From Isoetes taiwanensis (taxonomy: Eukaryota; Streptophyta; Lycopodiopsida; Isoetales; Isoetaceae), in assembly GCA_021234155.1 (NCBI GenBank), contig JAJEKV010000035.1:5160224-5224223 (forward strand): a stretch of DNA of 64,000 bases, read 5' to 3'. Numbering within the stretch: the first letter of the stretch is position 1; each line of letters begins with the position of its first letter. Both the position numbers and the translations under genes were made by a program. Shown here one piece after another: positions 1 to 63,723 of this stretch. Below the pieces are notes generated by a model, which saw only the letters and a program-made list of their open reading frames with translations, did not search any database and was not told where the DNA came from.

Positions 1-1171
1 CAGCAGCAGGGGCAGGTAGTACCTCAGGGACCTGTCATTGTGTGTCGCTGAAGCTTCTCCGCTTGTTTGGAGCTCTATGCCGCCCGGCGTATTCGTCGAT
101 CTCTATCTCAGTCAGCTCTCGGTAGTCTTCAATTGTGGAGTCGACTCGTCTGAGGTCAATTCCCGCTCCTCTTGTTGGAGGTGGTGTCGAAGGCCTCGGC
201 ATTAAGATGCTCGTGGTCTTTCCACGGATCCCCATCTATTCCTGGAGGGCGAGGAACTCCTCCTCCGTTGGCAGCTCCCGCTCTTCCATCATTTGCCTGA
301 TGTTGCTGTAGGCCTGGATGTCGGAAGTCACTTCCCCTGTGTAGGTGTCGGCTTCCCTGACTTGAAGCGGAAAGTCTGAGACTCCCCGGACGATGAAGTC
401 ATCTAAGTCCGGTTGCGCCGTAGTTGGTGGAAGCGATTCATCCAGTGCGAGCTCCCTCTCCACGCATTGGGCGGGTTACGGATGTCGGCGAGGGAGTAAA
501 TACTCCTCTCCGTCGATGATGATAGGGGCTAGGCTTGTGATGCCTAGCCCAAGTGGGGGAGCACTCTGAGGTTCTGTCGGCTCTGCTCGAAGTTGACCAG
601 CTCCTCTTACGCTTGTCGCCCGTTCCTCCTCTGAGTCTAGCTTCGGTGTACTCTTAGGTCGTCCGACTCCTCTTCTTCCTCTCTTCCTTCTTGCTCTTCT
701 TTGATGCTTTGCAAAAGCATCACGCTCTTCTGCTTTCGGGCTGCTATGGGGTCCACCTCCATGGGAGGAATAGAGGATTGCCCCCAATGGGTTTTCGACG
801 CGGTGGGATAGGAAAATAGCTAAAGGCGGCGTGTAGGAGAAATACTTGGTCTGTTAGGCTGTCCGGGGACCATGTAGTCCCAGTAGCCTCTGCGCCTTGT
901 TAGTTAAGTACTTGGCGATGTTGGGGACATCACCCAAGGCTGCTTGAAGGGATGGGCGGGGGACAAAATAGCCTATGCAAGGGGGGAGCTGGACGAGAGA
1001 GGGTCCTACCCTAGCTTGGAATTCTGCTAAGACTTGTCTATATGCTGGGGTTGCATTCAGAGTGGCTTGCACATCTATTTCTTTCCCAAAGACTCGGAAG
1101 ATGTCATTGACATCCGCCTCGGCAGCATGGGCACTGGCGCTGTACCATCGCCTGAAGTCAGCAGTGGCCAT
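1..1171 (-). pseudogene. unrecognised protein, one frame broken by four stops, runs off left edge
   Basis: Reading from the ATG at 1171, a single frame stays open to base 1 except for stops at 856-854 (TAA), 478-476 (TAA), 238-236 (TAG) and 37-35 (TGA). There are no frameshifts in about 390 codons. The N-terminal block (MATADFRRWYSASAHAAEAD) looks globular. A basic stretch follows (RRARRKRGRRGVGRPKS, with an AT-hook-like GRPK core), then acidic segments, which suggests a nuclear or nucleic-acid-binding protein. I recognise no family. It lies behind a TATA box and leader that match those of the H3-like gene at 9.6-10.9 kb, so the two units probably share an origin. The stops may be C-to-T decay of Gln or Arg codons. 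A readthrough or recoded gene is possible but less likely. Confidence 0.5.
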
Positions 1172-1300
1172 TGATCTAGCGAAGAAGAGAGTATCAAACG
1201 GATGCAGAAGCGCCTCAGGGAGCTGGAAGATCGCCTAAGCAGTGGAGAGCAAACTTACAGGGTGCTAAATGAGAAATGGAGGACCTATTTATAGAAAAGG
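1172..1300 (-). promoter_or_regulatory. TATA box and 5' leader shared with the H3-like gene
   Basis: On the minus strand TATAAATAG lies at 1293-1285. It is followed by CTCATTT, a TGCTCTCC block and AGGCGATCTTC at 1236-1226, then the ATG at 1171. The leader at 10983-10875 has the same elements in the same order and at nearly the same spacing. A telobox-like AAACCCTA (minus strand: TAGGGTTT) is just upstream at about 1305. TATA placement and conserved order mark this as a real core promoter. Confidence 0.55.
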
Positions 1301-1483: not shown

Positions 1484-1551
1484 GGTCTCACACGTTGCGC
1501 CCAGACCGATAATGAAAAGTTCATTTTCTGCCCTGGCGCGACGTGTGAGAC
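1484..1551 (+). repeat. 68-bp covarying hairpin element, copy 1
   Basis: The outer arms GTCTCACACGTTGCGCC and GGCGCGACGTGTGAGAC pair almost perfectly, with one T/G wobble. An inner stem reads AATGAA-AAG-TTCATT. The element is about 190 bp upstream of the TATA box of the minus-strand unit at 1-1171. Confidence 0.7.
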
Positions 1552-1717
1552 ATGGGCTCTAAATGGGTTAAACTTGATCTTATATTATAATGTTATACCG
1601 TAATTCTTGGATCAAGCCCTAATTTCAATGTTCGAGATCATCTGAGTGCATCCGAAGGCCGAGATTTATTGAACGACTTACCATCACCATGATTGGTTGT
1701 AGTTTGATCTCTTAAGG

Positions 1718-3085
1718 GGAAAGGTAAAGGAAAAAGGGGGGAAAGGAAAAGGGAAGAGACAAGAGAGAATGTGAAGGGCGAAAAGGCACGGGAAAAGGGA
1801 GAAAAGCAAAGGGAAAAGGGTGGGGATAAGAGAGGAGAAAAAGGCATGAAAAAATGAAAAGGGAAAGAAGAAAGAAAAGGGAAGGGGGAAAAGGTACCTG
1901 GAGAAAGGGCACGAGGGAAAAGGGAAGAGATAAAGTGGTAAAGGGAAGAGGAAAGGGCACGGGAAAAAAAGGAAGAAGGAAAGATTGAAGAAAGGGAAAA
2001 GGAAGGAGGAAAAAAGCATGGAAAAAGGGAAGAAAAAAAGGGCATGGGAAAAGGGAGAAGAGCATTGAAGAAAGGAAAAAGGAAGGGAAAAAAGGAAAAA
2101 GAAAAGGAAAAGGAAAAGGAGAGAAGGAGAGAGGGAAATGGAGGGGAAAAAGTGCATCGAGAAAAGGGGAAGAGTAAAAGGTTGGGAAAATGAGGAAGAG
2201 GGAAGGGAAAAAGGAGAACAAGAAAAGGATGGGGAGAAGGGAAGAAATAAGGGAAAGTGAGAAGAAAGAAAAAGGAAAGGGAAAAGGGAACCTAAAAAAA
2301 AGGCATGAGAAAAAGGGAAAAAGGTAAACAAGAAAAGGGAAGGGGGAAAGGGCATGAGATAAAAGGGAAGAGGAGAACGGCGGAGAAATAGAAAAAAGAA
2401 AAGGAAAAAAAGGGGGGGAAGAGAGAAAGGGTGGGAAAAAGAGGAAAATGAGTATAGGAAAATAAGAAAAGAAAACAAATGTGGAAAGGCATGGGAAAAG
2501 GGAAAAGGAAAAGGAAAGGAAGGAAAAAGGGCACGAGGAAAGGATCGGTAAAGGAGGAAAACAGGAAAAAAATCCATTAGGAAAGGGAAAAAGGAAGGAA
2601 AGCGCGGGAGCAAGGGAGAAGAGGAAGAAAACATGGGAAAAGGAAAAGAGAAAAGAAAAAGGAAGGGGAAAAAGAAGAAAAAATTGCACGGGAAAAAGAG
2701 AAGTGGGAAAGGGTGGGAAAAGGAGGAAAAGGAAAGCACAGGAAAAATAGAAAGAAGAAAGGGGTGGAAAAAAAGGGAAGGAAAAAAGGGCGTAAGAGAA
2801 GAGAAATGGAATTGAAAAAAGGAGGGAAAAGGGAAAAAAGGGGAGAGGGTACGGGAAAAAGGAAAAGAGGAAAATAGGAAAAGGGAAGAGAAAAAGAGAA
2901 CATAGAAAAATGGAAGGGAGAAAGGGTGAGGAGATGGGAAAAGGGAAGGTAAAAAGGGCATGAAAAACGGGAGGGGAAAAAAAACTAAAAAGAAAAAGAA
3001 AAGTGTATAGAAAATAAGAAAAAGTGAAATACGGGATAGAGCAAAAGGGAAAGGGAAACAGAAAGGGAAAGGTATAGGGCTTTTC
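1718..3085 (+). repeat. 1.4-kb polypurine/polypyrimidine block
   Basis: The plus strand is almost entirely A and G, built from irregular GGGAAAAGG-type units with only scattered C or T. The long minus-strand open frames here (up to 425 codons of Phe, Ser, Pro and Leu) are products of composition, not genes. Such tracts can form triplex DNA and are prone to length change. Confidence 0.85.
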
Positions 3086-3124
3086 TCACTACAGCCAAAA
3101 ACATTTATAGGCTCTCAACTTACG

Positions 3125-3151
3125 CCCAGCAACGCTGGGTACCATTACTAG
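3125..3151 (+). mobile_element. Helitron 3' terminus
   Basis: A perfect short hairpin (CCCAGC-AAC-GCTGGG, 3125-3139) is followed 8 bases later by terminal CTAG (3148-3151) and a host T. Helitrons end with a hairpin 10-12 bp before CTRR and insert between A and T. The same hairpin and end occur at 5635-5661. The 5' TC end was not found. Confidence 0.55.
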
Positions 3152-3950
3152 TTTCATTATAATACTACGCATGTTGTTCTCAACACATTTAGACTAATGC
3201 AATCCTAATCGTGTTATTTCATTACAAGGCGATTATCATGGACGTTCTTCAACACCCTTTGCATTATAAAAGGGGAATGTACAACTACACATCAAAAATA
3301 CTGAAATTAATGGATAAGGATTCAAACAAAAGAAAGATGGAAAATATACAACACATTCAAGAAATTGGATTTCATTTGTTTCATAGTCCTTATGCTTTAA
3401 TTCTAGCTCAACAATGTCTTTTGAATCAACAAGTCTGTAGTGGACAAACTTTGAAGCAAAACTTTGAAGCATTACTTTCTGGTAATATTTAAAATGTAAA
3501 ATCTCTGACAATCTTACTTGATCAGACCGACAGCACCGGAAATAAAGCTAGAAGCTTCTGTTGGAGAAGCAGAAACTAAAGAAGGGGCAAGACCATTGAG
3601 CTCAGCCACTTCGGATTGCGCCATCATCTGCAAAATGAACATGACAAATATTACTGCTTATAAAATGTCAAGCAACAACCAGAAAACAGATCAAGGAAAT
3701 AAGCTAACCTTAGGAGTAAGAACGCTGGCCTCACTAATAGCATAGACCATTTGCAGGTTCTGACTGTGCTGATCCTGAAATTGATGGTGATCACAAAACA
3801 GAAGCAGAAAAAGAAAACTAAGTTCAAAGCAGGCTGTTAAGGCTAAAAGTTAACATCTGTAAAGAGAACTTGAAAAAGCAAACCTACACAGATTATGATG
3901 TAGCAATGATAACAACAAAACATGAGGAGCATTGTAGAATGCACATTGGA
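3152..3950. other. no recognisable feature
   Basis: AT-rich sequence with short open frames on both strands. None has a recognisable motif, splice context or codon pattern. Confidence 0.4.
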
Positions 3951-3984
3951 AACGAGCACCAGAAGTGCTACAAAAAATTATTGG

Positions 3985-5612
3985 CAACGTATAATATTAT
4001 ACTCTTGTGGGACAGATTGAGACAGCTAGGGACCCCCGTCGACTTGCAGAATGCTATATACAGACTATACGAGGCTTGCTCCGGTCGTCTCACACACGTC
4101 GGGGAGCCCGTTGTTAGTAGCATTGGGGTGCGCCCGGTGCCCCTCTATCCCCGACGGCTCTTGGCACACATACATTGACCGTAGAAGAATGGCTAGCCGA
4201 GCACGGGAAGGCGTTGATGCACCACATAATCCGGCAACTCATATATGCCGATGATGTTGACCTGCTCGCATATACCCCTGGAAGGACATGCAACGCCACC
4301 GGATGCTTTGGACACTTTCACGCCAATTCACCGACATGAGAGTTAACTTGGCCAAGACAAAGGGTGCCGCTTCCCTCATTCACTTACCGAGGGGCGGGTA
4401 GTGGAGGTGGCTCGATCCCTATAAGTATTTGGGCATTGAGTTTTCTACTACCACACACCGGGATGCATCCATCGTTCTGAGGTCCCACCGCAGTTTGGAA
4501 AGCCCCGTATGCAATGCAAAACAACAGATCCTGAGGCGTAGCCAGATGCATGGGGTCACCGAGGCACACTTGTTCGAGGGCCTTGGTTGAACCGGTCCTC
4601 CTCTATGGGGCAGAAGTATGGGGGCGATGATATCCCTCACCACTTGGAACGATCTAAAGCAGTACGAAGTCCTTCTTGGCCCTGCACCGGGAGTGAAGTC
4701 CACGGTCCCATATCGATCTTGCTCCGAGAGGCGCTTCCTTCCATTCTGAGAGCTGCACCGAACGTCACATTATTTACTTCCGAGAAGGTGGTGGCTATGG
4801 ATGAAGCCCGGCTGCCCAACCTTGCTTTGGCGGTGGCGATGGGCCCTTGATGACTCAAAGCTTCTTTGGAAAGACAAGCAAGCCCGGTCATCCTCGCTAT
4901 GGAATGTGCGGGCACACGGATGTGGACCATGCATACATCGGCGAAGAAACGCGTTGCCTTGAAGCGATGCTTGGATGCTTGCTTCATGGCCAAGCTTTGG
5001 GATACTGAGGCCCCATCACATGTCAAGGTGGCAAATTATCGACGGCGGTTAATCCCATGCTCACGAGGGGCCCACACCACTACCTGCGCACCCATCTACC
5101 CATGAAAAAGCAGAGTGATTGCTTCCATTCGCGACAGTGCACACCACCTCCGCATTGAGACGAGGGAGATGGATTCGGGGCCGCGCGTGAGGCGCGTAGT
5201 CCGCCGCCGATCTTTGCAGCGATTGAGGATGAAAGTCACGCCCTCGGGCTGTCCATACCAAAGATATCCGGGCTCGGTATGCTCGGTTAGGTGTGCCCCA
5301 TCGGGCCTTGCATGAGCTACTGAGCCACGGCCTCAGAGGGCTTGTTGGGATCGTGGGGGAGGTAATGGATCTGCGGACTTCGATTATGCCCCCCGTCCCA
5401 GCATTAACCTCACTTTGTACTTGTGATTATGTATATAAGCTGTGCAAGATGTCGGCATCCTTATTGCTACTAAGGTTTTTCCCGAAAACCCTTGAGGCGG
5501 GGTTTTTAATCTGGTAGTATCGCTTTCTTTGCTCTCTCTTTGTACTTGGGTCCCATAGGCCAGTTGGTCTCCGTGGACGATAAAATCATATTCTATTCTA
5601 TTCTCTCCTGTC
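3985..5612 (+). pseudogene. decayed LINE reverse transcriptase
   Basis: A frame at 4005-4130 reads WDRLRQLGTPVDLQNAIYRL and then THVGEPVVSSIGVR, the region before the RQGCPLSP block of non-LTR reverse transcriptases. After a shift the next frame gives YIDR and WLAEHGK. A third frame at 4240-4275 gives QLIYADDVDLLAY, with the catalytic YADD box. Downstream sequence is coding-like but broken many times. The 3' end (gtggacgataaaatcatatt followed by ttcta repeats near 5580-5612) looks like a LINE tail ending in simple repeats rather than poly(A). Endonuclease sequence is absent, so the copy is 5'-truncated and dead. Confidence 0.7.
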
Positions 5613-5634
5613 ATTTACAAGTTCCCAATCTACC

Positions 5635-5661
5635 CCCAGCAACGCTGGGCACCCTTACTAG
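5635..5661 (+). mobile_element. Helitron 3' terminus
   Basis: Hairpin CCCAGC-AAC-GCTGGG (5635-5649), then CACCCTTACTAG ending at 5661, and T. It is nearly identical to the end at 3125-3151, so two Helitrons of one family ended here. The decayed LINE lies just inside this end, as captured or inserted cargo. Confidence 0.55.
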
Positions 5662-5766: not shown

Positions 5767-5834
5767 GGTCTCACACGTTGCGCCCAGCCCGAAAATGAGA
5801 TTCTCATTTTCTGTCCTGGCGCGACGTGTGAGAC
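5767..5834 (+). repeat. 68-bp covarying hairpin element, copy 2
   Basis: Same outer arms as the other three copies. The inner stem is AATGAGA-T-TCTCATT, different from copies 1 and 3 but still fully paired. It lies 3' of the truncated H3-like copy. Confidence 0.7.
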
Positions 5835-5978
5835 ATCGTCTCAATTTTTGCTCAAAAGTCCAATTTGATCAAAACAAAAGCTAGAATTCAATATCTTAAC
5901 CTAGTTAAGCAAGATTGAACACATTATTTACACAAAAATTCTTTATATTAACAAAAATTTTCATTATTTACAAGAAGT

Positions 5979-6518
5979 TCAAGGGCGTTCTCCCTTGATG
6001 TGTGCGCCAAAAAACATATCACGCCTCATGGCGTGACCCTCTTGGCGTGAACCGTGCAGCCGTCAATCCTCGAAATGCTTTGACTATTTTAAGCCTCTGG
6101 CGCCTTACAGTGACACCGCGACATTTCATCGGTCACCCGCATGTCCGTGTTGTACTCCTGCATGACTTCTCGGACCAAGCGTTGAAACGGTGCCCGGGGA
6201 ATCAAGAGTCCATAACTTCGTTGGAAGTGCCGGATTTCTTTGAGGGCTCTCTGCTCCTTCTGCTTGCTCTTGGTCCGCTTCTTTCCTGGTGCTCTGGGAG
6301 GCTTGGGCTTGGGTGGCGGCGGCTTCAGGGCCTGGCTTTTTGTCGGGCGTCCGCCTTCAATTGTTCTCACCCTGTGCTCCTGGTAGTAAGCGTTGTACGC
6401 CTCCCACTTCGCCATATAGGCGTTGTGCTCCTTAATCTTCTTCTGATAGACCTTGACCGGGTCTATCACGTACGCCTCCCGTTGGGGTCGCGGGGCTTTA
6501 ACTCTATCCCACGTCGGA
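5979..6518 (-). pseudogene. divergent histone H3 variant, 5'-truncated copy A
   Basis: The minus strand encodes a Pro/Lys-rich tail ([19 protein letters not shown]) and then an H3 fold: [36 protein letters not shown]. This aligns with the alphaN helix, alpha1 and loop 1 of H3 ([24 protein letters not shown]). After VTDE the frame shifts. The rest of the fold is found in pieces: HFED, VHAKRVT and IKGER up to the stop near 5979. LLIP.APF resembles centromeric H3, but loop 1 has the normal H3 length. The 5' part ends at about 6518, where a gypsy integrase begins on the other strand. The lesions differ from those in copy B at 9.6 kb, so the ancestor was intact. Confidence 0.8.
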
Positions 6519-7123
6519 ATCCAGACACTTGGCACAACCCCGTGTCAAAAGTGGAAGTTTTGCAGCAGATGTTGGCCGATATGCAGCAGCTCGTGGAAGA
6601 GGTTCGAGGGTATCTGCTAGCAGCAAGAAGTGGACAAAAGAGCATCGCCGACAAGCATCGAACAGTTAGAGAGTTCCAAGTTGACGACCATGTTTGGTTG
6701 AAGATCAAGGTAAAGCAGGCGAAGCTCAGGATCGGGAATTGCAAGAAGCTTGCTCCAAGGTGGGCTGGACCCTTTAGAATAGAAAAGAGAGTAGGTAATC
6801 AATCCTACAAGCTAGACTTGCCAGCACACCTAAAGATTCATAAGGTCTTCCACGTGAGTTTGTTGAAGAAGCACACTCCAAATCCAGACGAAGTCTTGGA
6901 CACTCCAACGTTGTTGGAAATGATTCTTGATAAAGCTTTCAAGAAAACAAGGAGGTCAGAGTTCCTCCAATACTTGGTCAAGTGGAAACACTTACCAGTG
7001 GAAGATGCGACATGGGTACTTAAGAAAGATCTAGTAAAGCAGTACCCCCAGTTTATGGAGCAATGGGACGGCAAGGTCATCTCCGAAGAAATCGGCTCAG
7101 GCATGTCGATTTGTGTAGATTAA
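6519..7123 (+). pseudogene. Ty3/gypsy integrase C-terminus with chromodomain (fragment)
   Basis: The frame 6540-7123 encodes the 3' end of a gypsy pol. It has the integrase C-terminal region (ADKHRTVREFQVDDHVWLK, LAPRWAGPFRI, YKLDLPAHLKIHKVFHVS) followed by a chromodomain (FLQYLVKWKHLPVEDATWV). Chromodomains of this position guide chromovirus integration to histone-marked chromatin. Protease, reverse transcriptase, RNase H and the integrase core are missing, cut off where the antisense H3-like copy starts. The open frame continues upstream through antisense H3 sequence by chance. A polypurine tract and LTR follow at 7976-9508, so this is the 3' end of one element. Confidence 0.85.
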
Positions 7124-7988
7124 TTCTATGTATAGTTAAGATTAATCTACGCATGCAACCTATGCTAGGTATGGGTCGCATGCGTTGTGACCGATGATGA
7201 GACCATTACGGTGATCTCTAGGGCGTGGTGTAATGTCAATGTAGGCATGACCGCGTTTCCGCTTGGGCGAGTGGAAGGTAGATTAGAAAGTCTACTTCTG
7301 TCCCACGGAAGTAGACGACCTCGAGAGAAATGAGGTCATGAAGGAATGCACTGATAGGAAAAGCACCTCTAGCCCCATATATGCTTTGATAGGAGGAATC
7401 AGGCCTTCGCGCCCCATATACGGGAAGGACCTATCCTCCACGCTGGGCAACTAGGGTGTAGGCATGAGCGGCATATAGGCATATAGGCGCTGTCTCCGCG
7501 GCCATAATGGAAGATTCACCCTCTTCCTACGCCGGGAGATTAGCCATGCATCCATGTAGATAGGTAACCAAAATTTTATTAATAATTAAAATGGTACTAA
7601 CATAGTGTCGACCTGCAGGCCAATAGAGCGCTTCGGAGGGCAAGGAGGTCGAGCTACGAAGACTTGCAACACAAATTTTGTAAGAATGTGTTGCAAGGAA
7701 TGAAGAGTACCTAGAACAATAATTATGAAATGTTAAAATTTTTGATAAACTAAATTGTCGTGATAAGTAAACTATCGAGTAACTTGCTTAAAGATGTTAT
7801 GCATTGATAAGTTATTTCATAATATAATGGCGTGATAATGTTCTAAAAATATTACCTTAAGGTAATCTTAATAAATGTGTAAGTATTATAGTAGTTATCG
7901 TATGTATCAGGTTGATTGCAGATTAAGATGATCCCAAGGTGGGGAGACCCGCGATGCTGCGGACAGCATCATTTCAAGGTGGGGAGAA
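7124..7988 (+). other. gypsy 3' untranslated region ending in a polypurine tract
   Basis: About 860 bp without coding sequence between the chromodomain stop and the LTR. It ends in AAGGTGGGGAGAA (7976-7988), directly before the LTR start TGTGATG. This is the place and composition of the plus-strand primer of an LTR element. A near copy of the tract lies about 37 bp upstream. Confidence 0.6.
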
Positions 7989-9508
7989 TGTGATGTTCGG
8001 GGACGATATCTCACGGTCCCGGGGCGTCGATCTTTATCTTGCCGCCAAATCATGTACACGCCACTCCGACTGACGTGTACGCCGACATGTAGCCAAGTGG
8101 GTAGCCCCTAGGGGGCAACTTGCTAAGAATGTGCATTAGTATTAATGTGCACATTTACCAATGTACACATTAATGTGGGGGTACTTTTCCATATGGACAC
8201 CTTATGCCAAGTGGGCCATACCCAAGTGTGCAATTAATGTGCACATTTACCAATGTACACATTAATGTGGGCATATTTTGCCACCTAGCCATTAAAGGCA
8301 AGTGGGCCCATTCCCAATTATCCCACATGCCAAAAGGGGATAATTGGAAACCCTAGCCAACCCCTTGTCTATTTAAGAAGGGAAACCCTAACTTGCCCAT
8401 TTTTCGTTTCTAGGGTTTTAGAGCTCTGTTTTGGCTGCCTCAAGAGACAAAACCGCCTCCCAGACTCTGACTGAGGGAATTGCACCATTAGTTTCCCTTG
8501 ATTCGAGCGTTTCAGCAGGATGGTCGAACTCAGGTCAGGAGGAGCCACTCAAGGATTAGGTATTTGGCCAATTAAATAGTCTAAACCCTATTTCAGTCAT
8601 AGAAGCAGTAGATTTAGCCTATTAAATTGCCCATAGCAGCCTTCTAGATCTCTAGATACCAGATTCTAACTAAAGAACCTAACTCTATGATATAGATTAG
8701 ATATAGTTCTTTAGTTCTTCTGTGATGTATATAGATGATGTATCTCTATGAACTCCTTGTATTGGGAAGGGGGGTAGAGACCTAAAGCTTGGTAGTAGAT
8801 GCTCCTAGATTAGCCTCTCTAGCACACTATAGATTCGGCCTGTGTACAAGAACCAAACTTGGTTGTGGGTGAAGGGGCCAGACTGGCTAAGAAGGAGATT
8901 CGTGTCCTGACTCTTGAACGATCCCTCTGGTGTGTAAGGCCTACCGGGGATCATTGTGACTAGGTCTAATGGCTTACCACCGAAGTGTGGGGTAAGGCAT
9001 GGGCTCGACACCCCGTGAAGTGGTGTTCATGACTTTCCATTGGGTTCGGTCGAATAAGGGCGGTGGCCCTCTAGTCACCTTGAGTCGATGGAGATCTCTG
9101 AGGGAGTGATCCCTACCGCCCCATCGGGCGGGGAGATGCAACCCGGGAATAGCCCCTTTGGCTATGCATCCCGAGGCTCTGATCAGTCCCGACACTTTTC
9201 AGCCTATTCTGCAAAGTGTGCACAGGAGGGGTGGATGGAGTGGACAACCCTATGCCATGTTCATATGCCAGCCAAATCCATTGTCATGAATTCTGTCTGC
9301 AACGAACTCTGGAGACCCAAGCCGTCAGTCACCCCCCTTGAGTCTGAGCCTTGGGTAGGATTTCCCCTTATGTATTGTGCTCATCTTGTCTATGCAGATG
9401 TGATGGACCACCCTTCGAGGTGGATATGTGCTTGTGTTATATACTGACGTGTATGTTTACGCTTCCGCAGCTAGGTAGGCCCTGAGGGAGACGGGGTAAA
9501 ATGACCCA
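7989..9508 (+). mobile_element. gypsy 3' LTR, truncated
   Basis: Begins TGTGATGTTC after the polypurine tract. From about 8050 it matches, in opposite orientation, the complete LTR at 11541-13407: the gtacacgccactccgactga block, the aatgtgcacatttaccaatg repeats, a TATA-like CTATTTAAG near 8376 and the ggggtaaaatgaccc block. The last part present in the other LTR (about 140 bp, ending CGTCACA) is missing. The sequence changes at 9509 to the 3' flank of H3-like copy B. Short open frames inside are not genes. Confidence 0.75.
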
Positions 9509-9554
9509 CAAAAATTCTTTATATTAACAAAAATTTTCATTATTTACAAGAAGT

Positions 9555-10874
9555 TCAAGGGCGTTCTCCCTTGATGTGTCTGGCCAAAAACATATCCTGC
9601 CTCATGAGCGTGACCCTCTTCGCGTGAACTGTGCAGACCGTCGAATCCTCGAAATGCTGCACTATTTTCGCCTCTGCTGCCTCCTGTGACCGCAAGAAGA
9701 TTTCATCCGGTTACCCGCATGTCCGTGTTGTACTCCTGCATGACTTCTCGGACCAAGCGTTGAAACGGTGCCCGGGGAATCAAGAGTCCATAACTTCGCT
9801 GGAAGTGCCGGATTTCTTTGAGGGCTCTCTGCTCCTTCTGCTTGCTCTTGGTCCGCTTCTTTCCTGGTGCTCTGGGAGGCTTGGGCTTGGGTGGCGGCGG
9901 CTTCGTGGGCTGGCTTTTTGTCGAGGCGTCGCCTTCAATTGTTCTCACCACGTGCTCACGGTAGTAGCGTTATGCGCCTCACACTTAAGCCATATAGGCG
10001 TTGTGCTCCTTAATCTTCTTCGATAGACCTTGACCGGGTCTATCCCGTGCGCCCTCCGTTGGGGTCAGCGGGGCTTTAACTCTATCCCGCGTCGGAAAAA
10101 AGTGGGGGCTTTGGCGCTTGCGGGGCTGTTCTTCTTCCTTTCGGGGGCTGCAAGCTCGGTACTTCCTTCTCCACGACCGGGGGTTTTGAAGAGCTTGCCC
10201 CAGTGTTGGGGACGTAATCTTCGTCCGAAGTCGTCGGTAGAAGCGGGTGTCTTTCGCTGATGGCTCGTTGATGATTCTTGGGACCCATCCTTTACGTTCG
10301 CTTCCCAACCTTCACAACTTTTCTCTTGCCGCCTTAATGGCTTTGGCCTTCTTCCTCTTGGCTCGCCCATTGCGGATGGCTTTTTTTATCGTCTGCTTTG
10401 TCTCTTTGTCCTCTTCTTTTCCTTAACTTTCTTAAGAGTTGCAATGGCAAAAATAGCGCTCCTTGGCTTCATACTTTTCTCTTGCGTGAAGGCCTTCATG
10501 TCTGCTTCCTCCAGCGGGGCTAAGCCCGGCTGCCGGCTCCTCTCTCTCCTCCTCCTCCTCCTGCTGAGGCCGGGCCCCAACCTCGAGTTGCTCTTGGCGA
10601 TCGGCTGCCCCTAAGCGCTCCGTTCCTCCTGCTCCTCCTCTCCTCTTGACCCATCTCTTGAGAATCATTTGCATAATGTCAGGCGCTCCTCCTCTATGAC
10701 CTCCATCACCTTTGGTTAAGCTCGTCCAGATCCTGCCTCCCTCATCATTGGAAGAAGATTAAGCCTTCTTGGGAAAAGCGTTCTTGCAGATATCCTCTGA
10801 ATCAGGCGGGGTCAGTCCCTGGAGGATCCCGGCGTCGGCGGGGGGCTTCTGGCGATCTGCTTTGTGCGGACCAT
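9555..10874 (-). pseudogene. divergent histone H3 variant with very long N-terminal region, copy B
   Basis: The minus-strand ATG at 10874 opens MVRTKQIARSPPPTPG, close to the H3 tail start MARTKQTAR. A long low-complexity region rich in Glu, Lys, Arg and Pro follows, in several frames, through about 10000. Then come [20 protein letters not shown] and [15 protein letters not shown] (frame of 9951-9703). After a one-base shift the fold ends with [28 protein letters not shown] and [10 protein letters not shown] before the stop at 9555. This covers the whole H3 fold. TLMR.D is typical of centromeric H3, while the GER end and loop length are typical of H3. Several frameshifts make this copy non-functional as written. 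Introns in the tail are possible but would not mend the fold. Confidence 0.8.
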
Positions 10875-11000
10875 GTTTGACGGTTCGCCGATCCGAGCTA
10901 TGCGCCAGAAGATCGCCTTGGCAAAGGAGAGCAGACTTTCCAAGCAGGGTACGCGAAAATGAGGGGGTCTAGGTCTATTTATAGGGGTCGATTTTTTTAG
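10875..11000 (-). promoter_or_regulatory. core promoter and leader of H3-like copy B
   Basis: TATAAATAG on the minus strand at 10983-10975, then CTCATTT, TCTGCTCTCC and AGGCGATCTTC (10918-10908), ending at the ATG at 10874. The same order and spacing occur before the frame at 1-1171. Two hairpin elements lie 80 and 280 bp upstream. Confidence 0.55.
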
Positions 11001-11062: not shown

Positions 11063-11130
11063 GGTCTCACACGTTGCGCCCAGCCCGATAATGGAAAGTC
11101 CATTTTCTGTCCTGGCGCGACGTGTGAGAC
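11063..11130 (+). repeat. 68-bp covarying hairpin element, copy 3
   Basis: Same outer arms as the other copies. The inner stem is AATGGA-AAG-TCCATT. It lies about 80 bp upstream of the TATA box of H3-like copy B. Confidence 0.7.
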
Positions 11131-11333: not shown

Positions 11334-11528
11334 ACCCTACTTTTTGGGGGGTTGGCTCACCAATTTTTAATCTTTTTATGTTTTTCATTCATTCTAACTG
11401 TTACTACCTTAGCATAAACTACAAAAATGAGAAAAAAAATTTCCCATTTTTCGAGGTTTAAGGATCCTATCAAGTTAGTGCTATTGGGAACATGGTCAGT
11501 GCTTTGCTCTTGGTCACCAAGAACATTG

Positions 11529-11540
11529 CTCTGATACCAC
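11529..11540 (-). promoter_or_regulatory. tRNA primer-binding site of the inverted gypsy-type element
   Basis: The minus strand reads TGGTATCAGAGC right after the LTR end at 11541, with a one-base gap. It matches the 3' end of plant initiator-Met tRNA and marks 11541-13407 as a 5' LTR in minus orientation. The internal region of that element therefore begins here and runs into the leader of H3-like copy B. Confidence 0.75.
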
Positions 11541-13407
11541 TGTGACGTCCCCTACTCATATACGGTGCACTCACCGTATACAAACAGGAGTTCATCCCCC
11601 ATACCAGCTCTATCTTGAATCTGGGGCCCTCCACATGACACCGCAACCGCGGTGGCGGGTTCCGGTGGGAAGAGTGAAGGGGTCATTTTACCCCGTCTCC
11701 CTCAGGGCCTACCTAGCTGCGGAAGCGTAAACATACACGTCAGTATATAACACAAGCACATATCCACCTCGAAGGGTGGTCCATCACATCTGCATAGACA
11801 AGGTGAGCACAATACATAAGGGGAAATCCTACCCAAGGCTCAGACTCAAGGGGGTGGATCCGGCGGCTTGGGGTTCTCCGAGGTTCCGTGAGTTCGCGAG
11901 ACAAAATTTCATGACAATGGATTTGGCTGGCATATGAACATGGCATAGGGTTGTCCACTCCATCTGCCCCTCCTGTGCACACTTTGCAGAATAGGCTGAA
12001 AAGTGTCGGGACTGACCAGTAGCCACGGGATGCATAGCCAAAGGGGCTATTCCTGGGTTGCATCTCCCCAGTTCCGATGGGGCAGGTAGGGATCACTCCC
12101 TCCAGAGATCTCCATGCTGACTCAAGGTGACTAGAGGGCCACTGCCCTTATTCGACTGAACCCACTGGAAAGTCATGAACACCACTTCACGGGTGTCGAG
12201 CCCATGCCTTACCCACACTCGGTGGTAAGCCATTAGACCTAGTCACAATGATCCCCGGTAGGCCTTACACACCAGAGGGATCGTTCAAGAGTCAGGACAC
12301 AAATCTCCTTCTTAGCCAGTCTGGCCCCTTCACCCACAACCAGGTTTGGTTCTTGTACACAGGCCGAATCTATAGTGTGCTAGAGAGGCTAATCTAGGAG
12401 CATCTACTACCAAGCTTTAGGTCTCTACCCCCCTTCCCAATACAAGGAGTTCATAGAGATACATCATCCATATACATCACAGAAGAACTAAAGAACTATA
12501 TCTAATCTATATCATAGAGTTAGGTTCTTTAGTTAGAATCTGGTATCTAGAGATCTAGAAGGCTGCTATGGGCAATTTAATAGGCTAAACCTACTGCTTC
12601 TATGACTGAAATAGGGTTTAGACTATTTAATTGGCCAAATACCTGATCCTTGAGTGGCTCCTCGACTGAGTTCGACCATCCCTTTGGCAACGCTTCGAAT
12701 CAAGGGAAACTAATGGTGTAATTCCCTCAGGCAGAGTCTGGGAGGCGGTTTTGGCTCTTGAGGCAGCCAAAACAGAGCTCTAAAACCCTAGAAACGAAAA
12801 ATGGGCAAGTTAGGGTTTCCCTTCTTAAATAGACAAGGGGTTGGCTAGGGTTTCCAATTATCCCCTTTTGGCATGTGGGATAATTGGGAATGGGCCCACT
12901 TGCCTTTAATGGCTAGGTGGCAAAATGTGCCCACATGGAAATGTGTGCCCACATTAATGTGTACATTGGTAAATGTGCACATTAATTGCACACTTGGGTA
13001 TGGCCCACTTGGCATAAGGTGTCCATATGGAAATGTGTGCCCACATTAATGTGTACATTGGTAAATGTGCACATTAATTGCACACTTGGGTATGGCCCAC
13101 TTGGCATAAGGTGTCCATATGGAAATGTGTGCCCACATTAATGTGTACATTGGTAAATGTGCACATTAATTGCACACTTGGGTATGACCCACTTAGCATA
13201 AGGTGTCCATATGGAAATGTGTGCCCACATTAATGTGTACATTGGTAAATGTGCACATTAATACTAATGCACATTCTTAGCAAGTTGCCCCCTAGGGGCT
13301 ACCCACTTGGCTACATGTCGGCGTACACGTCAGTCGGAGTGGTGTGTACGCGTGACGAGGCAGTATAGTATACGTCCTGGGACCGTATACTGTCCTGGAA
13401 CGTCACA
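11541..13407 (-). mobile_element. complete gypsy-type 5' LTR in minus orientation
   Basis: Bounded by TGTGACGT on the minus strand at 13407 and a complementary ACGTCACA at its other end (TGTGACGT at 11541 on the plus strand). Same family as the plus-strand LTR at 7989-9508, but longer. It contains extra 92-bp repeats at 12930-13240 and the terminal 140 bp lost from the other copy. A primer-binding site follows at 11540. A polypurine tract and partner LTR for this copy are not in the window, so the element is broken or nested with the plus-strand one. Confidence 0.75.
12926..13250 (-). repeat. 92-bp tandem repeat inside LTR
   Basis: The unit starting gtccatatggaaatgtgtgc occurs at 13021, 13113 and 13205, an exact 92-bp period, with a partial copy near 12935. 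The plus-strand LTR near 8150-8290 has fewer copies. Such upstream-region repeats vary within LTR families. Confidence 0.75.

Positions 13408-34106: not shown

Positions 34107-34149
<43 letters not shown>
33900..34149 (+). mobile_element. 3' end of a retroposon with 42-A tail
   Basis: Sequence typical of a LINE 3' end (tgtatgatcatgtaatttt, then agtaatatattttctctggc, then tttcctc) runs into 42 A residues at 34108-34149. The A tract directly adjoins the left edge of duplication copy 1. Confidence 0.5.
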
Positions 34150-34151
<2 letters not shown>

Positions 34152-36605
34152 GTTCTACTCTGTCTAAACAGCCCAATTTTGGAACTAAAAGACTTTCGAT
34201 TGCAATCTTACAGACCAGGTGACAGTCTAATCTAAGCCCTGATCTGAGGCTTTTTTAAGAAAAATGAAAAATACAAATAAGGACAAGTTTATGAAACATT
34301 GGCCAAATAGCCAAAACGATTCAAAAGATATAGGAGATCAACATCAGACTATATGGAAGACTTTTTGAGCTTTGAATTCAGACAGATGATAAAACATGTA
34401 CAAATATAAAAAAAAAGGAACTTAATACTAAGATATGAACCACAAATCAATATAATACTGATTTGCATAATATAACTTATGAGTCAACCATCCACGGTGG
34501 TGGAACAACATATAACAACTTAAAATAGAGAAAAGTAGACAGATGTCACCAAGAAGCTAGCTTCCGAAGTTTAATCTTGCAGATTTGAGCAGTAGTTTTT
34601 GCTCATTGAACACCATGGAAAACACCACTTGGAGGGATAACTCCGGTTACCTGCAGTGGAACCAAACGCAAGTTAGCCTGAGAAGGGTAAATGTGTAAGC
34701 CACAAACAGGTAAGCAATGGACTCATCCGGCTTAACGCCTTTCACCATAAAACGAACACTTAATAATTTAATAAGACGCAAACAGTTTAAGAAAATGAAT
34801 TTGTTAAATTGATACAACGTAAATAGAAATAGCACAGTTAGGGCTATAAATAACAATATTTTAATTGGAACTGGAGCGTAAAAAGAGGACCGTAAGGAAA
34901 CTAGCTAAAGAGGAATCCGTAGAGCTAGATAAGAGAATGAATAATTGAGCTTGCACTATCATGTTTGCACAGGTAAAATTGTGCAAGGCAAAGAACATGT
35001 GGGAATAGAAAATCTATCCAGCTTAAGTAGCTCAAAAGGATAGCACTGTATCAGCTTACAATGGAATCGAAATAGAACATAACTAAGGACAACCAAAGAT
35101 CCATGCAATAACAAAGATCAAACAAGATAGAGAGAAGATAATGTTAACATCAATATACAGCAAGAAACTATCGATTATTCAGAAGAAGATACTGCATGGC
35201 CATCATACAAGGGCAGATCTGCTCCAAGTTGCTTTCAAAACACGAAATGGAAGGATATGCATCTACTTTCTGAAATTGTTAACAAGAAATAGTAGACTTA
35301 TACATCAATAAAATATTACGGTTCAAGTAGCATACAAGACAAGGGATATTACATATCCACTGTCACATCTGTGCAGGTCATGTATGTGTAGAAATAGGAA
35401 ATCCATCTAGCTATCCAGAAATTCTAAGACAGATCCAAATTCAACTACCTAATACAGGTCAATGTGCTGTTTATTTCTTAAGTTACCAACGAGCTAAATG
35501 AGAACCATTATTAGCAGCATAATATGACATCCCATCCTTATGATACAGTGTACTTCTAGCGGCTAGCTTATTCTTCTGTTTTGCTATTTTAGATAGAGAT
35601 CTACATAAGCTGTATTTGACATATTTTCAGTATAACCATATAGAACATCACGATCAACCTGTATTTTAAGGTCTACCTAGCCAAAAAATTGTGGTAGAAT
35701 TAAAAACGAAAATGGGTAAGAACCTGGTTCGTCATGATGCCATCTACTTGGTCGATTTGTGCTTTTGCAGCTGAGGCCGATGGTATATTGTACTTTGGGC
35801 AGAGAAACTCTCTTTGGGAGTGCATAGCTAATCATGAATAGATTGTAGCTAATCATGAATAGATTCTTTGCTGGCGAGACCTTGCACATTCTGAGCCGAG
35901 CTCCCTTGTTCTTCAAGATCAGCGAGTTCACTGGCTGGGAATGCATTAGAAACCTTAACAGGCTTAGTGAAACCTCATTTTGGTCTACCCATAAACTGAA
36001 AGCAGCTCAACAGTGCAGCATGTCTCTGGTTTAATACAATCCCAAGATACGCGAGGATGATTTTCATATGGAGCAACTCCTTGGAATATCTGTTAGGGTA
36101 AGGAGACGTCTGCGCCCATCGTAAAGTGAAGAAGCTCAGAGAAATGAAAGAAACCTAAACCTAAAAGAATCATGCAAAATATTGACGGTCTGTTTTTTTT
36201 AACCATACTACCATGTAATTTCTAATTGTAGAATAGAAATGTTCAATGGTTAAACTGAACATTGGTAGAGTTTACGATATTCAATGAAGCAAACGTTAAC
36301 TCATAAAAATGCAATACCGAGTTGAATGTCGTTTTCAAGGTGGACATGAACTCTACAAGGGGACTAGAGATGATGCAATACCAAGTTGAATGCCGTTTCC
36401 AAGGTGGACCTGAATTCCACTAAGGGGACTGGAGATATCAATCTAATTTAGAGAAGGGAAAATCAGTTGCTAACAAGGATCCATTTATTTTAAGAAGATA
36501 CAACAACACATGAGTCAACTAGGGGGTCTCAAAACATCCGTTGCTAATAAGACCACTGGGGGCATGATTTTAAGAAGAATCAGCAGTGTATTGGTCAATA
36601 TAAAA
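34150..36605. repeat. 2.5-kb direct duplication, copy 1
   Basis: Nearly identical over its length to 37285-39807. Differences are scattered substitutions (for example at 35758, 35822 and 36022), short deletions near 34170 and 34215, and about 50 bp lost near 36236. It is AT-rich and mostly non-coding. The 5' edge abuts a 42-A tract. Confidence 0.9.
35849..35992 (-). pseudogene. exon-like remnant with AT-hook-like start (copy 1)
   Basis: After an acceptor-like gctgctttcag the minus strand reads MGRPK, a TGA, GFTKPVKVSNAFPASELADL, then EEQGSSAQNVQGLASKE and a stop. If the TGA was once CGA the start would be GRPKRGF, an AT-hook core. The downstream part has protein-like composition. The second duplication copy at 39148-39005 has the same TGA, so it predates the duplication. 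Family unknown. Confidence 0.25.
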
Positions 36606-37284
36606 AAATCCTACCTCCTACCTCAGGCAGGGAGGTCCCAATAAGTCACTTTACTTGACTTAAGAAAGCTGCAACAGGGAGAGTAGGGCCCTGTTGCAAC
36701 ACAGGGGCCCCACCCAACCCGTATAATTCTACTCTATGAATGTGCAAAAAAGGAAAGATAGAACTTACAGTATAGCTATAACAGTCCTGATGAATCTTGG
36801 CATTCAAAAAATGTCATAATGATATCTGTTTTGAGATATGATAGTGTAAAAGTTTTTGTTTTAATACATAACCAGGCATGGAAAAACTCTTTCCATAAAA
36901 CCCATGACTGGTGGTACATATGTTAACTCCTTGAGTTCTGTAAGTACACAATACCCTTGATGCAAAGAGAAGTTTCAAATTCAATTGACGTGAGTGTATA
37001 TACGTACCCAGTTGCCCACATTTGGATGATGAATTCATGAACTTCTTTAATGTGATGAAGTCAGTTCGTGCTAGAAATACCACACTGGTTATCCTTTAAT
37101 AAAGATCAGCTCCTTTATCCTTACAGTATTGACGTCATCATCTTTAACAACAATTTAAATATTCTATACAAGATAATAAGAGTGTTAAGATCAAAAATTT
37201 GAACAGTTCCAGCAATCAATTAAATACACCTGACCTCAAATCAAGGTTCTGGGTTAAACCCAGAAATTGAGATAACATTAAAAA
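36606..37284. other. spacer between duplication copies
   Basis: About 680 bp of unique AT-rich sequence, including aggggccc-type low-complexity near 36690. No gene seen. Confidence 0.5.
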
Positions 37285-39806
37285 ACCGTTCTAGTCTGTC
37301 TAAACAGACTTTAAGCCATTTAGACCCAATTTTGGAACTAAAAGACTTTCAATTGCAATCTTAGATTAGACCAGGTGACAGTCTAATCTAAGCCCTGATC
37401 TGAGGCTTTTTTAAGAAAAATGAAAAATACAAATAAGGACAAGTTTATGAAACATTGGCCAAATAGCCAAAACGATTCAAAAGATATAGGAGATCAACAT
37501 CAGACTATATGGAAGACTTTTTGAGCTTTGAATTCAGACAGATGATAAAACATGTACAAATATCCAAAAAAAAGGAACTTAATACTAAGATATGAACCAC
37601 AAATCAATATAATACTGATTTGCATAATATAACTTATGAGTCAACCATCCACGGTGGTGGAACAACATATAACAACTTAAAATAGAGAAAAGTAGACAGA
37701 TGTCACCAAGAAGCTAGCTTCCGAAGTTTAATCTTGCAGATTTGAGCAGTAGTTTTTGCTCATTGAACACCATGGAAAACACCACTTGGAGGGATAAGTC
37801 CGGTTACCTGCAGTGGAACCAAACGCAAGTTAGCCTGAGAAGGGTAAATGCGTAAGCCACAAACAGGTAAGCAATGGACTCATCCGGCTTAACGCCTTTC
37901 ACCATAAAACGAACACTTAATAATTTAATAAGACGCAAACAGTTTAAGAAAATGAATTTGTTAAATTGATACAACGTAAATAGAAATAGCACAGTTAGGG
38001 CTATAAATAACAATATTTTAATTGGAACTGGAGCGTAAAAAGAGGACCATAAGGAAACTAGCTAAAGAGGAATCCGTAGAGCTAGATAAGAGAATGAATA
38101 ATTGAGCTTGCACTATCATGTTTGCACATGTAAAATTGTGCAAGGCAGCAACATGTGGGAATAGAAAATCTATCCAGCTTAAGTAGCTCAAAAGGATAGC
38201 ACTGTATCAGCTTACAATGGAATCGAAATAGAACATAACTAAGGACAACCAAAGATCCATGCAATAACAAAGATCAAACAAGATAGAGAGAAGATAATGT
38301 TAACATCAATATACAGCAAGAAACTATCGATTATTCAGAAGAAGATACTGCATGGCCATCATACAAGGGCAGATCTGCTCCAAGTTGCTTTCAAAACACG
38401 AAATGGAAGGATATGCATCTACTTTTTGAAATTGTTAACAAGAAATAGTAGACTTATACATCAATAAAATATTACGGTTCAAGTAGCATACAAGACAAGG
38501 GATATTACATATCCACTGTCACATCTGTGCAGGTCATGTATGTGTAGAAATAGGAAATCCATCTAGCTATCCAGAAATTCTAAGACAGATCCAAATTCAA
38601 CTACCTAATACAGGTCAATGTGCTGTTTATTTCTTAAGTTACCAACGAGCTAAATGAGAACCATTATTAGCAGCATAATATGACATCCCATCCTTATGAT
38701 ACAGTGTACTTCTAGTGGCTAGCTTATTCTTCTGTTTTGCTATTTTAGATAGAGATCTACATAAGCTGTATTTGACATATTTTCAGTATAACCATATAGA
38801 ACATCACGATCAACCTGTATTTTAAGGTCTACCTAGCCAAAAAATTGTGGTAGAATTAAAAACGAAAATGGGTAAGAACCTGGTTCGTCATGATGCCATC
38901 TACTTGGTCGATTTGCGCTTTTGCAGCTGAGGCCGATGGTATATTGTACTTTGGGCAGAGAAACTCTCTTTGGGAGTGCGTAGCTAATCATGAATAGATT
39001 GTAGCTAATCATGAATAGATTCTTTGCTGGCGAGACCTTGCACATTCTGAGCCGAGCTCCCTTGTTCTTCAAGATCAGCGAGTTCACTGGCTGGGAATGC
39101 ATTAGAAACCTTAACAGGCTTAGTGAAACCTCATTTTGGTCTACCCATAAACTGAAAGCAGCTCAACAGTGCAGCATGTCTCCGGTTTAATACAATCCCA
39201 AGATACGCGAGGATGATTTTCATATGGAGCAACTCCTTGGAATATCTGTTAGGGTAAGGAGACGTCTGCGCCCATCGTAAAGTGAAGAAGCTCAGAGAAA
39301 TGAAAGAAACCTAAACCTAAAAGAATCATGCAAAATATTGACGGTCTGTTTTTTTTAACCATACTACCATGTAATTTCTAATTGTAGAATAGAAATACCA
39401 AAGGTTGAATAATAAAAAAATTATTCTAATCATACACTTAGAAGGTTCAATGGTGAAACTGAACATTGGTAGAGTTTACGATATTCAATGAAGCAAACGT
39501 TAACTCATAAAAATACAATACCGAGTTGAATGTCGTTTTCAAGGTGGACATGAACTCTACAAGGGGACTAGAGATGATGCAATACCAAGCTGAATGTCGT
39601 TTCCAAGGTGGACCTGAATTCCACTAAGGGGACTGGAGATATCAATCTAATTTAGAGAAGGGAAAATCAGTTTCTAACAAGGATCCATTTATTTTAAGAA
39701 GATACAACAACACATGAGTCAACTAGGGGGTCTCAAAACATCCGTTGCTAATAAGACCACTGGGGGCATGATTTTAAGAAGAATCAGCAGTGTATTGGTC
39801 AATATA

Positions 39807-39807
<1 letters not shown>
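37285..39807. repeat. 2.5-kb direct duplication, copy 2
   Basis: Partner of 34150-36605, offset 3.13-3.20 kb. It retains about 20 bp (actttaagccatttagaccc) and a 50-bp piece near 39398 that copy 1 lacks. Its 3' edge runs into 27 A residues (39808-39834), where copy 1 has only seven. Confidence 0.9.
39005..39148 (-). pseudogene. exon-like remnant with AT-hook-like start (copy 2)
   Basis: Same as 35849-35992, including the TGA after MGRPK. It differs by very few bases. Confidence 0.25.
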
Positions 39808-39837
<30 letters not shown>

Positions 39838-45473: not shown

Positions 45474-46345
45474 TGATGGAAATTCATCTCATAATCCTGC
45501 AAGATCCAGGTCAGTACATGCAAACAATAATATAAGTTGTGTACAAGGTTATCATGTGATGAGGGTTATCATTTGTATGATCTAACTATGCGAAGCAGTG
45601 GCAGTAGTGTAGATCAACATGATTTCAAGTTGTCTGCTTAATGTACATATGAGAAGCAGTGGCAGTAGGTTACCTTGCAGACCATGACCTAATTTAATGT
45701 GCAAATGAGAGAGGAGTTTATGCCAGGAGCCTATGCCAAGTTGTTTAATACTCAAGATCATCACCAAGGTTAAGAAAATGATTGAAATGTTAACATGAAT
45801 ATTGAGGAAGAACTTCTAATAGGGAAAGATTGATTCAATGGTCGAAAAGCCAGTTTATACCGTTTGTCCTGTGGGATATTTGTGAAAGGCTAGTTTCGTG
45901 GACTTGTCCTGTGGGATATTATCGACGGATTGAAATACCAAGATTGGAAAGAAAGATCGGTCCCATAACCGTCGGAGTGATGAATATAACTGGTAGAACA
46001 CTTGCTGTATTGGACATATTGAAGGAGGAGATCACATTGGTGATCAAAGATCTGCAATGGCCGGAGTCAACCATGCTACAGTTATTGGGTCAATGCCCCG
46101 ATGAACAGTGACTTATTTGCTACAGTATTCCTATGGTTAAATCATTACTTTTATTATTGACAATGATCTTATTGTCCTAAGGCCATTCTAGAATGTTTTC
46201 TAGAACCTTGTGTTCTAGAGAAAATTAGTGACCATGTTTTGGCTTTTCTCTAGATCATCATTGTAACTCTATTGTTATAGAATTTGCAAATCTTGCTAGA
46301 CATCTAGATTCATTGTCTTGTGTGCATTATCTTTAAACTCCATCA
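45474..46345 (+). mobile_element. copia 5' LTR
   Basis: 872 bp, TGATGGAAATTC ... AAACTCCATCA. TTCTAGAA occurs at 46186 and 46198, and ttctagag at 46213; these are heat-shock-element-like modules ahead of the transcribed part. Short open frames in the LTR are not genes. Confidence 0.93.
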
Positions 46346-46346
46346 G

Positions 46347-46358
46347 TGGTATCAGAGC
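46347..46358 (+). promoter_or_regulatory. copia primer-binding site
   Basis: TGGTATCAGAGC, one base after the LTR, complementary to the 3' end of plant initiator-Met tRNA. Confidence 0.92.
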
Positions 46359-46366
46359 CATTCAAC

Positions 46367-50617: not shown

Positions 50618-51504
50618 TGGAAATTCATCTCATAATCCTGCAAGATCCAGGTCAGTACATGCAAACAATAATATAAGTTGTGTACAAGGTTATCATGTGA
50701 TGAGGGTTATCATTTGTATGATCTAACTATGAGAAGCAGTGGCAGTAGTGTAGATCAACATGATTTCAAGTTGTCTGCTTAATGTACCTATGAGAAGCAG
50801 TGGCAGTAGGTTACCTTGCAGACCATGACCTAATTTAATGTGCAAATGAGAGAGGAGTTTATGCCAGGAGCCTATGCCAAGTTGTTTAATACTCAAGATC
50901 ATCACCAAGGTTAAGAAAATGATTGAAATGTTAACATGAATATTGAGGAAGAACTTCTAATAGGGAAAAATTGATTCAATGGTCGAAAAGCCAGTTTATG
51001 CCGTTTGTCCTGTGGGATATTTGTGAAAGGCTAGTTTCGTGGACTTGTCCTGTGGGATATTATCGACGGATTGAAATACCAAGATTGGAAAGAAAGATCG
51101 GTCCCATAACCGTCGGAGTGATGAATATAACTGGTAGAACACTTGCTGTTTTGGACATATTGAAGGAGGAGATCACATTGGTGATCAAAGATCTGCAATG
51201 GCCGGAGTCAACCATGCTACAGTTATTGGGTCAATGCCCCGATGAACAGTGACTTATTTGCTACAGTATTCCTATGGTTAAATCATTACTTTTATTATTG
51301 ACAATGATCTTATTGTCCTAAGGCCATTCTAGAATGTTTTCTAGAACCTTGAGTAATGATGCTTGTATATGTTCTAGAGAAAATTAGTGACCATCTTTTG
51401 GCTTTTCTCTAGATCATCATTGTAACTCTATTGTTATAGAATTTGCAAATCTTGCTAGACATCTAGATTCATTGTCTTGTGTGCATTATCTTTAAACTCC
51501 ATCA
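50615..51504 (+). mobile_element. copia 3' LTR
   Basis: 890 bp. Identical to the left LTR apart from about seven substitutions and an 18-bp insertion after tctagaaccttg (near 51352). Confidence 0.93.
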
Positions 51505-63500: not shown

Positions 63501-63723
63501 TAATCCATGCTTTCATAGTAGGAAGCTCATCTTCCCTTGGTTGTGTCGTAATGAATTCTCTGAACGGGGTGCAGAATGCTTCCTTTCCTAAGAGGCCAGT
63601 ATTGAATTTAAAGGGAACATTGCCCCTTCTTCTTGCAGTGGGAAGCTCCTCAAGTATTAGTTTTTGTGGCACATGGTCAGACTGCGAGAAGGCAAGGTCT
63701 CCTTCCACATAACATTTATCCAT
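60555..63723 (-). pseudogene. LINE ORF2 (reverse transcriptase and zf-RVT), minus strand
   Basis: The 745-codon frame 63723-61486 starts at the end of the endonuclease (SQSDHVPQKLIL). The reverse transcriptase follows: KSPEPDGFPPEFY (family form has G for the first E), FIALIPKV, EWRPIALTNVLYKV, SAFLPNRNILDN, LDFRRAYDSLRW, GIRQGCPLAPYLF and QYADDTFLF with the catalytic YADD. Then come IHKFIWG and GGLGCKDP. Frameshifts at about 61560 and 61270 lead to the C-terminal zf-RVT (CPLGCGASETLDHLFFCP, near 60960-60900) and a last shift near 60600. Almost complete 3' of the endonuclease but inactive. Upstream, the endonuclease start is on the opposite strand. Confidence 0.88.

Follow-up and report, generated by a model that had tools for sequence, protein, structure and literature searches.

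The H3 ORF and its surroundings in the window

The window, a stretch of 64,000 nucleotides from Isoetes taiwanensis, holds an open reading frame (ORF) for a histone H3 on its minus strand, with the ATG at 10874 and the stop codon at 9557 to 9555. The original prediction had described a divergent H3 with an H3 N terminus and a very long extra tail, and such a protein is present: this copy, B, begins with MVRTKQIAR and ends in an H3 fold running through HIKGERP, as confirmed by reading the frames and by Pfam and PDB searches. The Pfam profile Histone (PF00125) matched the read-through fold, in which X residues were placed over one unsure stretch, with an E value of 1.2e-20 (74.5 bits; cutoff, 26.4), and PDB H3.8 matched it at 2.2e-25, with 48 of 88 fold residues identical in a gap-free alignment. 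The H3 match is thus real, and PF00125 recognized the fold of the natural copy L044 at 3e-27. A second stretch, copy A (5931 to 6519), shares 91% DNA identity with positions 9507 to 10097; the frame is broken in A and in B, at differing places.

Compared with intact copies of the retrotransposon described below, the minus-strand segments 13407 to 9507, 6519 to 5662, and 1579 to 1 read as one element, with the following features.

11541 to 13407, minus strand: 5' LTR of the minus-strand element, with TGTGACGTTCC and GACGTCACA ends and homology to the LTRs of other copies
12918 to 13262: tandem 92-bp units inside the 5' LTR
11528 to 11539, minus strand: primer binding site TGGTATCAGAGC; the same site follows the 5' LTR in L016 to L018 and L021
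11267 to 11331, minus strand: 65-bp dyad 1, preceding the H3 ORF
11065 to 11129, minus strand: 65-bp dyad 2, likewise preceding the H3 ORF
10975 to 10983, minus strand: putative TATA box lying 109 nt upstream of the H3 ATG (pattern match)
9555 to 10874, minus strand: copy B of the H3 ORF, with a disrupted frame in the assembly (Pfam/PDB; open copies elsewhere)
6520 to 9507, plus strand: inverted 3' part of another copy, with the end of pol plus chromodomain (to 7123) and an LTR (from 7989, cut at 9507)
5931 to 6519, minus strand: copy A, a repeat of the final ~590 bp of the H3 region
5769 to 5833, minus strand: 65-bp dyad 3, between H3 and X
1580 to 5661, no strand assigned: one or more later insertions separating dyads 3 and 4, with a purine-rich block and LINE-like sequence with reverse transcriptase (RT)-like frames
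1486 to 1550, minus strand: 65-bp dyad 4, upstream of ORF X
1285 to 1293, minus strand: putative TATA box of ORF X, 122 nt before the ATG (pattern match)
1 to 1171, minus strand: ORF X (MATADFRRWY...), cut by the window edge, frame broken here

The piece at 6520 to 9507 comes from another copy of the same element and has ~590 bp repeated on both its sides; it matches L030 and L032 contiguously and L034 in two separate parts. Because copy A is this ~590-bp repeat flanking the inverted piece, the layout makes it a duplicated stretch of one H3 ORF, or the product of a misjoin, and not a second gene. The idea of A as a second whole gene copy was therefore abandoned, A and B being overlapping parts of one element copy. 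The insertion of ~4.1 kb is bounded by the end of element homology at 5662 and its resumption at 1579, at one point of L017/L018. Sequence similar (66 to 79%) to the purine-rich block (1690 to 3080) adjoins another element copy (L030, 8354 to 8808).

Other repeats populate the rest of the window. A Ty1/copia element lies at 45474 to 51504 (LTR-like repeats 97% identical; gag, integrase, and RVT_2 frames), a 2.5-kb direct repeat at 34144 to 36608 and 37280 to 39812 (96.4% identical), and a LINE-type reverse transcriptase ORF of 745 aa (RVT_1) at 61486 to 63723 on the minus strand. Dense tandem TTCTAGAA units, which we take to resemble heat-shock elements, occupy 59481 to 60154.

The retrotransposon and its two extra ORFs

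To place the ORF in its genome (1,658,258,908 bases in 1,110 pieces), we searched with 401 bp of the fold and obtained 1,219 candidates. Forty of these were scored, and all 40 matched at 87 to 100%, on many contigs and with the window's two included. We fetched 32 of the 38 scored places outside the window, 12 of them (L016 to L027) as 9.9-kb stretches. Sequence around the H3 region was common to all 12 long loci, and in most of them the homology reached the end of the stretch or nearly so; it ended soon past the H3 region in L019 and before the stretch end in L023, and L020 was without the part preceding the H3 ORF.

The element runs in the order 5' LTR, H3 ORF, ORF X, gag, pol with chromodomain, and 3' LTR, over ~13.4 kb (13,355 and 13,380 bp computed for two elements; ~15.1 kb for a third). 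Four elements traced to both ends had LTRs of ~1.66 kb (TGTGACGTTCC...GACGTCACA), the primer site TGGTATCAGAGC, and a purine tract preceding the 3' LTR. A 5-bp target duplication was exact in two of the four and had one mismatch in another, and the 3' end of the remaining one was damaged. Differences between the LTRs within these elements came to 57/1653, 44/1648, 46/1668, and 93/1504. Gag, protease, RT, RNase H, integrase, and chromodomain were found in that order in pieces of L017, L018, L032, and L034. By sequence, the element is an abundant, chromodomain-bearing Ty3/gypsy chromovirus, and the ORF belongs to a high-copy LTR retrotransposon and not, as had been predicted, to a host histone gene present as two copies that decayed independently. 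An endogenous giant virus, a foldback element, and a Pack-type transposon were dropped as candidates once the LTRs, primer site, and gag-pol had been found, and in place of hAT-type DNA-transposon ends or a transposase we met LTRs and reverse transcriptase. Its chromodomain keeps one of the three aromatic-cage positions in an alignment with a presumed HP1 sequence and presumed cage positions.

ORF X is open over 488 to 511 aa in 3 of the 12 loci (L021, at 5890 to 7362, L025, and L026), had no Pfam match and no PDB match, and gave a pN/pS of 0.090 over its first 130 codons (n = 8). In this family (family 1), each extra ORF stands behind two 65-bp dyads and a putative TATA box. Of 45 dyad copies found, at a mean column identity of 94%, the window contributes 4 and the 12 long loci contribute 41; eight of these loci have the full set of four. 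The two modules of ~260 bp are 71 to 74% repeats of each other in 8 of the 12 loci, and the window's two promoters likewise resemble each other (score of 32.5 versus a maximum of 22.5 in 300 shuffles). Of eight loci scanned, five had matches to both H3 motifs, at a TATA-to-ATG spacing of 109 to 111 nt, and seven showed a spacing of 122 nt for X. Several versions of the dyad center (GGA..TCC, GAA..TTC, and GAGA..TCTC) occur in the window and in L016 to L027, and all keep the symmetry. Such centers hint at a dimer site or a hairpin, and X is a possible partner protein or DNA-binding protein of the dyads, as a candidate only. In IMG/VR, a dyad pattern scan returned six exact matches, which is not above chance by a rough estimate; the H3 query found no relative, and the X query gave one match of only 16 residues.

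A search with canonical H3 revealed a second family. It returned 9,022 candidates, and among the 150 that were scored, 15 were host-type H3 (96 to 98% identity) and 135 lay at 71 to 86% identity, the match being interrupted by a stop in 6 of the latter. We describe family 2 from five of those 135 places (L059 to L063), each of which holds a 409- to 413-aa ORF with a differing N terminus (MA.TK.APDP) and an H3 fold; pN/pS was 0.049 for the fold and 0.143 for the whole ORF (n = 5). H3 residues 1 to 9 are not kept in these five ORFs (MAITKSAPDP). A constant part of ~320 aa (MA.TKSAPDPSTLSIVEIYAMIAKH...) precedes the fold in L059 to L063 and matches no family tested. At the one place whose flanks are described, family-1-like LTR stretches and the primer site lie upstream, and an X homolog, a gag-like frame (57 to 61% to family 1 by tblastx), and an RT frame lie downstream. 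The X proteins of the two families are 22% identical over 445 residues (E = 3e-10; family-2 homolog at L064, 257 to 1657). Since the H3-X-gag order also occurs in family 2, at this one place, the H3-X pair before gag likely predates the split of the two families. The family-2 pieces showed neither a dyad nor the TATA motif (TATAAATA). A common origin of X and the N-terminal part of the family-2 H3 ORF was suspected but found no support (best BLASTP E value, 0.20), family-2 X being a separate ORF.

Selection on the H3 protein, frame breaks, and origin

An intact form of the protein had been predicted to exist, and 4 of the 32 fetched copies are indeed open from MART to the stop codon (415 to 417 aa). 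Three of them start exactly as H3 does (MARTKQTARK; MARTKQTARKPR), and the fourth starts MARTEQTARKPR, with E replacing K4. The protein consists of H3 residues 1 to 9, a replaced S10, ~315 mostly charged residues (an insert both K/R rich and acidic), and the fold, ending in GERP. By a pattern-based criterion, the fold is open in 20 of the 32 copies and not in the other 12; L018, L051, and L053, counted among the 20, have garbled letters within the second helix. The pooled pN/pS of the 20 open folds was 0.138, a level that is possibly biased, as copies were picked by similarity to the window and an open frame. The same holds for its parts: 0.093 in the 11 low-indel copies (bootstrap 95% interval, 0.041 to 0.166) and 0.201 in the 9 indel-rich ones. 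In the four full copies, pN/pS was 0.071 for the first 12 codons, 0.245 for the insert, 0.207 for the prefold stretch, and 0.101 for the fold. Judged by these ratios, the H3 fold is under purifying selection among element copies.

The frame breaks in the window had been read as decay that differed between A and B. Their places do differ, but they cannot be taken as decay. Clustering of the differences between A and B is strong (columns with one difference, 192; 0 of 10,000 shuffles), and on the gene strand these differences often exchange CAG and CGT. When 33 sequences (31 fetched copies plus A and B) were compared with the open copy L023, they formed two classes, 17 with 0.8 to 8.8 indel events per kb and 16 with 12.9 to 39.4; B had the highest rate of all, and A had 13.0 per kb over its part. 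Indels of the rich class were concentrated at CHG (153 versus a control mean of 91.3) and CG sites (107 versus 66.9), counts reached by 0 of 2,000 shifts in both cases, and showed no enrichment in homopolymers (59 versus 72.4). The poor class, with few events, tended in that direction too, with 23 versus 10.3 at CHG (115 of 2,000 shifts) and 23 versus 7.7 at CG (21 of 2,000). According to the accessible text of the genome paper, the published assembly (1,658.30 Mb; 204 scaffolds and 909 contigs) rests on Nanopore reads, with racon and pilon used for polishing (PMC8566536). In roughly half of the copies, the window's included, indels favor CG and CHG sites, as methylation miscalls would, which makes decay an unsafe label for the lesions. 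Miscalls at methylated cytosines would explain many of the frame breaks at least as well as decay does, and the CAG/CGT exchanges together with the two indel classes suggest methylation-linked assembly error. Apparent pseudogenes in methylated repeats of other long-read assemblies may likewise be sequencing error.

These data bear on whether the ORF is simply a host gene for an H3 variant that underwent duplication and decay, its spread as a repeat being passive hitchhiking of a captured fragment. The broken frames of the window copies and the 12 fetched copies without an open fold would fit such a history, and a captured, inactivated H3 in a fungal transposon provides a precedent, at least in the accessible text (PMC6710886). 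However, pN/pS is low among the copies of both families, X is conserved too, the putative promoters are separate and constantly spaced, and the lesions are enriched at CG and CHG sites, so we regard this history as very improbable.

The source of the histone is less clear-cut. The original prediction noted a mixed CENH3/H3 look, and this is real: LLIPRAPF and RVTLMR in the fold are motifs that we take to be CENH3-like. A CENH3-type insertion in loop 1 is absent, though, the window fold needing two to three gap columns against each of four CENH3s and none against five H3s, with which it shares the length of loop 1 and an H3-like C-terminal end. Its pairwise scores were 236 to 245 against the five H3s and 173 to 189 against the four CENH3s, three of which are presumed sequences. 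In the tree, for which 11 of the 20 open family-1 folds were used, family 1 fell on long branches beside two plant CENH3s (sequences likewise presumed) at 84/84, which is not strong, and family 2 fell among canonical H3s; a single clade of both families was not rejected (p-AU, 0.2). Family 1 ends in GERP, family 2 in GEQP or GERP, and three fetched host H3s in GERA. The host H3s carry Y41, which fits the signature of non-flowering-plant H3s given in the accessible text of PMC4357034. If family 1 derived from a host CENH3, its product might act at, or mimic, centromeric chromatin; the tree grouping and the two motifs point that way. We nevertheless consider this improbable in view of the H3-length loop 1, the H3-like PFQRLVRE and GER end, the higher scores against H3s, and the unrejected joint clade. 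One capture followed by fast divergence of family 1 and two captures are both possible.

Possible function and relation to known systems

With considerable confidence, we interpret the window feature as the histone ORF of a Ty3/gypsy LTR retrotransposon whose product would enter nucleosomes for the element's benefit. The parts of this reading differ in strength. That the H3 is encoded by the retrotransposon and selected appears nearly certain from the copies compared; that it enters nucleosomes is somewhat favored; and anti-silencing or targeting as its purpose is a tentative suggestion. The H3 fold pairs with H4, and plants silence retrotransposons largely via histone H3 marks. The protein (~417 aa) would be made from its own internal promoter, pair with host H4 through its conserved fold, and then enter nucleosomes, most likely on or near element DNA. 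There, the altered tail (residues 1 to 9 kept in family 1, the rest a long charged insert) might weaken silencing or mark integration chromatin. In both families the fold is the long part that is kept best, which makes contact with H4 and nucleosomes the likeliest function for them to share; family 2 does not keep H3 residues 1 to 9, and a tail-based function is therefore not common to both. With one of three aromatic-cage positions kept, the chromodomain gives little reason to expect a direct link between it and the H3 tail of the same element. More speculatively, the lineage might build its own chromatin, using a nucleosomal H3 with a remodeled tail and X as a partner, both expressed in family 1 from the matched dyad-TATA modules, on its own DNA to escape or steer silencing.

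The H3 could instead act in the element particle, in cDNA compaction or nuclear import, and not in host nucleosomes. The long insert, K/R rich and acidic, and the position of the ORF before gag are compatible with such a role. Yet the best-kept part in both families is an H4-pairing fold, and the H3 has its own promoter module and is not part of gag, which makes a particle function unlikely. If nucleosomal use by the element is correct, one lycophyte would have kept, in two element families, a new strategy for the conflict with the host, and this histone would be the first known to be encoded by a retroelement. An element making its own selected H3 would render the silencing conflict testable from the element's side, and its copies supply a natural series of H3 folds that remain constrained despite having diverged to about 54% identity. 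Unusual annotated "histone genes" may, by extension, be element cargo.

In the literature searched, which included few subscription papers and no bioRxiv-only ones, we came across no histone described as encoded by a retroelement. The word "histone" is absent from the main text of two Isoetes genome papers (one being PMC8566536) and, for plant retrotransposons, from that of PMC7264820, and it occurs once in the accessible text of PMC6317226. In the examined portions of papers on Isoetes, histone H3, and retrotransposons, Isoetes occurs only in reference lists.

As far as the accessible texts go, several known systems share single traits with the Isoetes element. Like plant chromoviruses (PMC6317226), it has the gag-pol order, an integrase chromodomain, and a tRNA-Met-type primer site; it differs in its two extra ORFs and in the cage motif, which is reported to be kept in non-seed plants and is mostly lost here by alignment. 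Additional ORFs beside gag-pol, some with their own promoter, also occur in other plant LTR retrotransposons (PMC7264820 and PMC6317226), although the described ones lie mostly between pol and the 3' LTR and those of Isoetes lie before gag. A Phalaenopsis Ty3/gypsy element with an AlkB-type RNA demethylase ORF (PMC9289625) is likewise a plant element keeping an acquired ORF with a host-type domain, but it is Tat related, 25 kb long, and carries an enzyme, whereas the Isoetes chromovirus carries a histone and a second ORF before gag. In Pseudocercospora fijiensis and relatives, a hAT element has amplified H3 (PMC6710886), as here; that element is a DNA transposon whose copies, except the original, are RIP inactivated, whereas Isoetes copies stay open and constrained. 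DNA viruses with histones (PMC9145170) are mobile genomes encoding their own histone, as the Isoetes element does in the form of a retroelement.
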